A stretch of 64,000 nt of DNA, taken from assembly GCF_005239225.2 (NCBI RefSeq), contig NC_133301.1, forward strand, positions 6,783,157-6,847,156, in the 5' to 3' direction. The DNA comes from Populus alba (Eukaryota; Streptophyta; Magnoliopsida; Malpighiales; Salicaceae). Each line of letters starts with the position of its first letter. The stretch's first letter is position 1. The notes under the pieces were generated by a model that had not been told where the DNA came from, ran no database searches, and was given only the letters and a program-made list of their open reading frames with translations. The position numbers were made by a program, and so were the translations under genes. This document shows positions 36,153 to 36,806 of the stretch, piece by piece.

Positions 36153-36806
36153 TCACAGATGAAGGCTCAAATCTAATCTAAGCTTTTTACGGCTTTCCTT
36201 AGTTGACCAATCTAGACGACTCATGCAGGGATCAATGACAGGGATGAAAGATTGTAGTTGGTCAATCAATTGTTCAGCAGTAGCAGCAGAGATTATGATT
36301 CGTCGTGCCGAAGATGTTAGAAATTCCTGTTCCACAGCTTGATCAAGGAAAGACAGCAACTTATCATAAAAACCATTAACATTTAACAAACCTATAGGTT
36401 TATGGTGAATGTGCAGTTGGGCCCAAGATGAAATATGAAAGATCTCTTCCAATGTGCCCAGACCACCTGGTAAGGCAATGAAGGCATCAGCATGGTTAAA
36501 CATGGTATTCAGTCGGTCAGACATTGTTGGGACCTGTAGTTCCTCTCCAATTGTTTTTCCAATGATGTCCCCAGTTGCTAAAGCTTTGGGGACAACCCCC
36601 AAAACTTGACTGCCTCCTAAAAATGCAGCCATTGACACACCTCCCATTAACCCAAGGCTGCCTCCCCCATACACTAAATGAATCTTTCTCTCAGCTAGTA
36701 CCCGACCAAGATGATTTGCTGATTCTAAAAACTCTTTTTCTTTCCCAGAACTGGATCCACCGAAAACACAAATATTTCTTATATGATGACTTGAGGAACC
36801 TGCCAT
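36153..36806 (-). CDS. LOG-like cytokinin riboside 5'-monophosphate phosphoribohydrolase, intronless
   Basis: A complete 217-residue frame. LOG enzymes release active cytokinin bases from their riboside monophosphates in the cytosol. Visible signatures: N-terminal nucleotide-binding start NICVFGGSSSG (11-21), YGGGSLGLMGG (46-56), then ADAFIALPGGLGTLEE with the family motif PGGxGTxxE at 113-121, WAQLHIHHKPIGLLN (128-142) and GFYDKLLSFLD. The length fits plant LOGs (about 210-230). The Arg before the motif is kept (MSDRLNTM, 95-102), but the Lys that usually follows it is Leu, so activity is uncertain. Plant LOG genes normally have several introns; none is here. It lies between pol and the 3' LTR of element A, on the same strand. 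A TATA-like box is at 36871-36880 and a (GA)n run further upstream. Capture from a host LOG is the simplest reading. Confidence 0.88.
   Translation of the reverse strand: MAGSSSHHIRNICVFGGSSSGKEKEFLESANHLGRVLAERKIHLVYGGGSLGLMGGVSMAAFLGGSQVLGVVPKALATGDIIGKTIGEELQVPTMSDRLNTMFNHADAFIALPGGLGTLEEIFHISSWAQLHIHHKPIGLLNVNGFYDKLLSFLDQAVEQEFLTSSARRIIISAATAEQLIDQLQSFIPVIDPCMSRLDWSTKESRKKLRLDLSLHL

Follow-up and report, generated by a model that had tools for sequence, protein, structure and literature searches.

A 64,000-nucleotide stretch of Populus alba DNA (the window; NC_133301.1, positions 6,783,157 to 6,847,156) contains an LTR retrotransposon in which an open, intronless frame for a LOG-like protein lies among the element's own genes. 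Host LOG genes contain introns. Is this frame a passenger of one young insertion or a regular gene of an element family, and what might its product do for the element?

Structure of the element and its extra genes

The element lies on the minus strand between two copies of the target site duplication GGTCA (33219-33223 on the left, 45036-45040 on the right) and reads in the order 5' LTR (43314-45035, 1722 bp), primer binding site (43290-43307), which we take to be of the tRNA-Asp type, gag-pol (37819-42876; a frame of 1685 codons with gag, protease-like, RT, RNase H and integrase regions), zinc-finger ORF (37166-37678; 170 codons, related to carlavirus NABP), LOG (36153-36806), a polypurine-rich tract as read from the sequence (34941-34953) and 3' LTR (33224-34940, 1717 bp). 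The LTRs are 99.65% identical, with one substitution and four small indels between them; the insertion in the window is young. An initial annotation had placed the LOG frame between pol and the 3' LTR, on the element's coding strand and inside LTRs flanked by GGTCA, and we confirmed the coordinates and both duplications. It had also called the ORF intact, which is right for the LOG frame, which is open, but not for the copy that bears it, since an N-terminal piece of gag (42969-43079, minus strand) is out of frame with the rest, so that gag is broken, and the zinc-finger ORF is short.

By domain order and structural features, this is an Athila-type Ty3/gypsy element. Athila elements are recognised by the Gypsy domain order without an additional (archaeal-type) RNase H (PMC6317226), and in the window RT, RT-RNase H and integrase follow one another in this order, with no further RNase H family detected by Pfam at E 0.001. 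No chromodomain was found, and this, the extra ORF between pol and the 3' LTR and the 5-bp target duplication all fit Athila while not being exclusive to it. A Pfam search gave no match in the element to the Athila ORF-1 domain, which is reported for 16% of Athila elements; in the superclade to which Athila belongs, most elements have extra ORFs (PMC6317226). Elsewhere in the window, Gypsy-like gag and pol frames that look alike by eye occur at 4288-8265 (minus strand) and 16661-21776 (plus strand), and a diverged direct repeat (30683-32212 and 48213-50055; pieces 73-89% identical, ~17.5 kb apart) flanks the element on both sides, possibly as an older LTR pair between which the element inserted.

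The LOG frame was borne out as a run of 217 codons with the motif PGGLGTLEE, read from 36806 to 36153, and its 217-aa product matches Pfam Lysine_decarbox (PF03641; E 1.6e-38, 132.3 bits, cut-off 27). Among proteins of solved structure, the best sequence match is Arabidopsis At2g37210 (chain 2a33_A; E 1.6e-60, 207.9 bits), named AtLOG3 in PMC4979012.

Its neighbour, the zinc-finger ORF, matches the Pfam profiles Viral_NABP (32.3 bits, cut-off 23) and Carla_C4 (25.9 bits, cut-off 20.9), and at E 0.01 these are also matched by 28 and 29, respectively, of 31 family members. At 170 codons, the ORF in the window is shorter than the form of 182 aa that is commonest among the 120 matches listed (27/120; 145 aa in 21/120). 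The C-terminal part of the gene of the longer relatives lies here behind the stop codon (37061-37165, minus strand), where the major-allele fraction across copies is 0.987-0.997. The whole NABP-like gene (37061-37678, minus strand) is a conserved and selected part of the family, and it adjoins LOG in an Acer gene model too. Scans of viral contigs with the LOG and zinc-finger ORFs found no relative of either.

Between these two genes, 73 nt 5' of the LOG start codon, is a TATA-box-like stretch, CTATAAATTC (36870-36879, minus strand), with a (GA)n tract before it (36938-36956, minus strand) and a pyrimidine-rich stretch after. Its four TATA columns are unchanged in all 52 copies that cover them (8 of the 60 do not), and the 20-nt bin with the TATA, at 0.989, exceeds in conservation every other bin between position 160 and the start codon (0.949-0.979); noncoding bins just past the NABP stop are equally conserved (0.987-0.991). 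LOG perhaps has a TATA promoter of its own, for which this pattern is suggestive only.

Copies, derivatives and relatives of LOG

In the P. alba genome the LOG active-site motif, allowing at most three mismatches, occurs at 964 places, and its reversed control at none. A search with the LOG protein gave 1782 first-look candidates. The best 150 of them went on to scoring; all have at least 95% identity and full or almost full length, and a stop is absent from 139. Among 20 copies with long flanks, taken from the upper part of this LOG-ranked list, 18 have the NABP-like ORF upstream of LOG. Median nucleotide identity to the window is 98.6% for pol (10 copies), 96.8% for the LTR (18), 96.4% for the noncoding stretch after LOG (14), 94.5% for the NABP-like ORF (18) and 99.7% for LOG (20), the last figure being inflated because the copies were picked by LOG. 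LOG is therefore a regular gene of this Athila-type family and not a lone capture. The initial annotation had reasoned that the ORF would be a passive passenger if sister copies lacked it and this copy were a lone retrocopy insertion; sister copies do have LOG at the same place.

Two kinds of derivative, neither of which is in the initial annotation, accompany these copies, as does the NABP-like neighbour, which it had likewise not mentioned. One lacks RT. Only 10 of the 20 LOG-picked copies have pol; eight (L009, L010, L012, L014, L015, L022, L027, L028) share a rearrangement in which RT, RNase H and the core of the integrase are lost, and the other two (L023, L024) have the same left junction and also miss most of NABP. 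The piece between the junctions of the pol deletion is a diverged integrase zinc-finger region with 87% identity to 39234-38782. LOG is without a stop in all ten, which were all picked by LOG.

The other kind lacks LOG. It was met in 20 copies ranked by NABP, a sample biased against LOG because places already fetched for LOG were left out: nine of these have a full-length LOG (three undamaged, four frameshifted and two with a stop), three a partial one, and eight (L049, L051, L055, L058, L060, L061, L064, L066) none, through one shared junction behind which the end of LOG is retained. In the top 60 NABP-ranked copies, 30 LOGs are open, 13 are absent, four have stops, four are frameshifted, three are partial and six are unclassified. 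The LOG-less subfamily is defined by a single shared deletion of 774 bp, equivalent to 36191-36964 (minus strand; limits blurred by a few nucleotides of microhomology), which also takes out the TATA-like stretch, and its junction occurs at 65 places (control, 0). The LOG end retained behind one junction in the eight copies read rules out that the LOG-less form is ancestral, and a spliced intron is ruled out by ends that are not GT-AG.

Since the LOG-less subfamily has spread, LOG is not needed in cis: it is usually present but dispensable. A role in cis for the LOG protein or its RNA stretch in replication or packaging could explain why LOG is open in the RT-less derivatives, including the two without most of NABP, in a set of 20 copies that were picked by LOG, but a deletion shared by 65 places and a constraint that acts on codons and not merely on nucleotides (see below) make such a role very unlikely.

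LOGs of the same type are found in other plants. In Sapindales, the LOG of four gene models, two from Xanthoceras (P0088, P0242) and two from Acer saccharum (P0289, P0305), is fused to Athila-type gag-pol stretches (51% identity to the element over 51 aa, 57% over 42, 76% over 187 and 63% over 179), and that of one Acer yangbiense model (P0261) to an NABP-like ORF (54% over 114 columns). Some of the listed LOG and NABP matches have a longest contig of equal length (8723, 4511, 66318), which suggests, without proving, linkage there too. We built a tree of 71 rows, namely the window, 67 of the 188 listed LOG matches, two Arabidopsis LOGs and one bacterial LOG. A branch of length 0.62, with support 100/100 in a bootstrap that is not fully settled, has on one side 53 rows, including Populus, Acer, Xanthoceras, Reevesia and Parasponia, and on the other 17 other LOGs (14 from named plants) and the bacterial row. 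We call the 53 element-type, by their place in the tree except in Populus, Acer and Xanthoceras, where linkage to an element is shown. The split persists without the four longest rows, a check that is not independent of the tree, from which the labels were taken.

The gag-LOG and NABP-LOG fusions in Acer and Xanthoceras and the single element-type clade make the capture of LOG by the Athila lineage look old. A host LOG subfamily picked up repeatedly by Athila, or passed horizontally between plants, would be an unlikely substitute for one old capture. It would account for an element-type subtree that does not strictly match host relationships (Reevesia stands apart from Acer and Xanthoceras), and it is helped by a tree composed without host LOGs of Populus; against it, the element-type rows all fall on one side of one branch, and NABP-like ORF and LOG occur together in both Populus and Acer yangbiense. 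The initial annotation had proposed that the element captured a LOG transcript or an intronless copy and kept it open. An open, intronless LOG does belong to the element, but its lone or recent capture by a single young element is ruled out by the 964 places, the sister copies and the one element-type clade. LOGL10 proteins of Populus trichocarpa and P. nigra (P0095, P0119, P0271) also fall inside this clade and are likely, from their position, to be products of transposon genes and not of host LOG genes.

Selection on LOG, the NABP-like ORF and pol

The pairwise dN/dS ratio (omega) between copies was 0.27 for LOG (45 rows, one from the window and the others from 44 of 60 loci, eight loci having no LOG and eight more a partial or shifted one), 0.20 for the NABP-like ORF (54 rows, compared from codon 21 of the ORF in the window) and 0.21 for the 3' half of pol (11 rows). 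Read in wrong frames, the same alignments gave 0.97 and 1.44 for LOG, 0.92 and 0.97 for NABP and 0.89 for pol (one wrong frame). Most of the LOG rows were drawn from lists ranked by LOG, in which conserved proteins are favoured, and NABP-ranked copies were used to lessen this picking by LOG: the ratio was 0.32 (bootstrap 0.20-0.51) for the nine full-length LOGs among the first 20 of these, and 0.27 (0.15-0.55) for 29 of the 38 full-length LOGs in the top 60, the four frameshifted ones included, a set not wholly free of the bias as its open LOGs were recognised via the LOG list.

A neutral null was drawn from the mutation spectrum of noncoding sequence, with 40 changes in each of 200 sets; its median ratio was 0.73 (95% 0.34-1.46) and its smallest 0.27. 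As this median is not 1 and the smallest value is that low, we did not rely on the plain ratio by itself but also fitted a codon model that includes a transition parameter, masking stops. It gave omega 0.41 for LOG (63 rows, 2dlnL 69.5), 0.31 for NABP (51 rows, 71.7) and 0.32 for pol (11 rows, 32.9), rejecting omega=1 for each. Moreover, the ratio of nonsynonymous to synonymous variants (N/S) was lower for variants found in several copies than for private ones in LOG (0.84 vs 1.88, p 0.004), NABP (0.50 vs 4.90, p 2e-8) and pol (0.50 vs 1.17, p 0.14), as expected if the proteins are constrained during replication and the copies drift after insertion. LOG is thus under purifying selection between element copies. 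Neutral evolution across copies, by which the initial annotation would have recognised a passive ORF, is not what we see.

A LOG retrocopy that is open merely because its copies are young would be in keeping with the youth of the copy in the window, the multiplication of LOG-less copies and the frequent damage to LOG among NABP-ranked copies. It is nevertheless extremely improbable given the rejection of omega=1, ratios of 0.27-0.29 set against the null distribution above (median 0.73, lowest set 0.27), and one clade that spans Acer, Xanthoceras and Populus.

Predicted activity and possible benefit to the element

In CgLOG, Arg99 and Glu122 are proposed to be catalytic, Met96, Lys100 and Glu121 form the adenine site, and activity is nearly eliminated by Ala substitution at the crucial residues other than Ser19 (PMC4979012). 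By alignment, the equivalents in the LOG of the window are Arg98 and Glu121 for the catalytic pair, and Met95, Leu99 and Glu120 for the adenine site. Arg98 is kept in 52 of the 53 element-type LOGs and Glu121 in all 53. That Leu stands where a Lys normally follows the conserved Arg had been noted in the initial annotation and is correct as regards Arg98-Leu99, but the change is family-wide: among the 120 LOG matches listed, position 99 is L in 76, M in 39, I in 2, K in 2 and H in 1, which rules out a private loss of Lys in this copy. Across the tree, the position is K in all 18 other rows and L in 14, K in 15, I in 15 and M in 9 of the 53 element-type ones. By subgroup, it is K in 13/13 rows of the Acer-Xanthoceras part, L in 14 and M in 4 (K in none) of the 18 Populus-type rows, and replaced in 20 of the 22 non-Populus rows outside Acer-Xanthoceras. 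The 17 other LOGs have 89 invariant columns; the LOG of the window keeps 68 of these and differs in 21.

The element LOG resembles plant and bacterial LOG enzymes (AtLOG3, AtLOG8, CgLOG) in its homologous sequence, with PGGxGTxxE and the catalytic Arg and Glu, and differs from them in being intronless and element-borne, in the replacement of the adenine-site Lys in Populus and in the 21 changed columns, counted against the 17 other LOGs. With the catalytic Arg and Glu kept and the Lys replaced, phosphoribohydrolase catalysis looks retained and base recognition may be altered. From its homology we infer that the protein activates cytokinin; the Leu at the position of CgLOG Lys100 and the 21 changed columns mean that its substrate may be something other than a cytokinin nucleotide.

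A somewhat unlikely alternative builds on the latter point: a retained phosphoribohydrolase with a shifted substrate would degrade another adenine-type nucleotide, for example a plant TIR defence signal, and so shield the element. This would agree with the adenine-contact Lys having given way to Leu, Ile or Met in 38 of the 53 element-type LOGs beside an intact catalytic pair, with the selection on the LOG protein seen in the codon model and with a neighbour related to a viral silencing suppressor. The Lys kept throughout the Acer-Xanthoceras rows speaks against it, and the TIR link is speculation from general knowledge.

We favour, with moderate confidence, an old, selected accessory gene that manipulates the host, LOG raising cytokinin and benefiting the element by way of dividing or undifferentiated cells that form the germ line. 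The usual gene set of the family would then be gag-pol, a basic carlavirus-NABP-like zinc-finger protein and a LOG-type phosphoribohydrolase, the last made as a separate protein from a putative internal promoter directly upstream. The enzyme would free bases, most likely cytokinins, from nucleoside 5'-monophosphates; the raised cytokinin would keep future germ-line cells dividing or undifferentiated, and such cells would allow more rounds of copying and transmission of the element. The p12 protein of the carlavirus CVB has two roles, activating transcription when nuclear and countering silencing when cytoplasmic (PMC7588395); by analogy, the NABP-like protein beside LOG might modulate transcription and suppress silencing. 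What the neighbour gene has in common with carlavirus NABP and CVB p12 (PMC7588395) is its matches to Viral_NABP and Carla_C4; in contrast to them, it is encoded by an LTR retrotransposon, and its silencing suppression is putative. We count against this reading the spread of the LOG-less copies, the damaged LOGs among NABP-ranked copies and an omega for LOG that exceeds those of pol and NABP. A benefit that arises at the level of the cell would, however, be common to all copies in it, so LOG-less derivatives could free-ride. More tentatively, and at a lower probability, a rosid Athila lineage may long have carried a virus-like cassette of two genes, a silencing suppressor and a hormone enzyme, that drives the division of the cells transmitting it, with the derivatives exploiting it.

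That plant Gypsy elements can contain a LOG-family domain is already known. The YgdH domain of LONELY GUY proteins has been reported from consensus sequences of Gypsy elements in two Citrus species and also, once a filter is switched off, in P. trichocarpa, in agreement with Steinbauerova 2011 as cited there (PMC9289625). As in our case, the domain lies inside Ty3/gypsy and in Populus, and these elements probably belong to the same lineage as that of P. alba; the relevant part of PMC9289625 is a short domain report, without anatomy, neighbour gene, selection, phylogeny or copy number. Orchid Gypsy elements with a functional AlkB m6A RNA demethylase (PMC9289625) similarly acquired an extra enzyme, which there is a different one with proven activity, whereas here it is of a hormone type and predicted from sequence. 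Our searches of the open-licence PMC literature turned up no account of the NABP-LOG cassette, of the selection on it or of its phylogeny, and within that literature these points appear new; a term search of PMC7264820 and PMC13317346, with LOG-, cytokinin- and Populus-related words included, gave no match.

The extra ORFs of plant Gypsy elements are mostly without known domains (PMC9289625); here the extra ORF encodes a recognisable enzyme of a hormone pathway, with 964 motif places, selection at the codon level and a gene related to those of RNA viruses beside it. The neighbour gene gives a clue to where carlavirus cysteine-rich proteins may have come from, and caution is called for with annotated poplar LOGL10 genes, which may be transposon genes. 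With LOG-bearing, LOG-less and RT-less subfamilies within one genome, the family provides a natural experiment, and it opens to test the idea that retrotransposons direct the development of their host so as to get copied.
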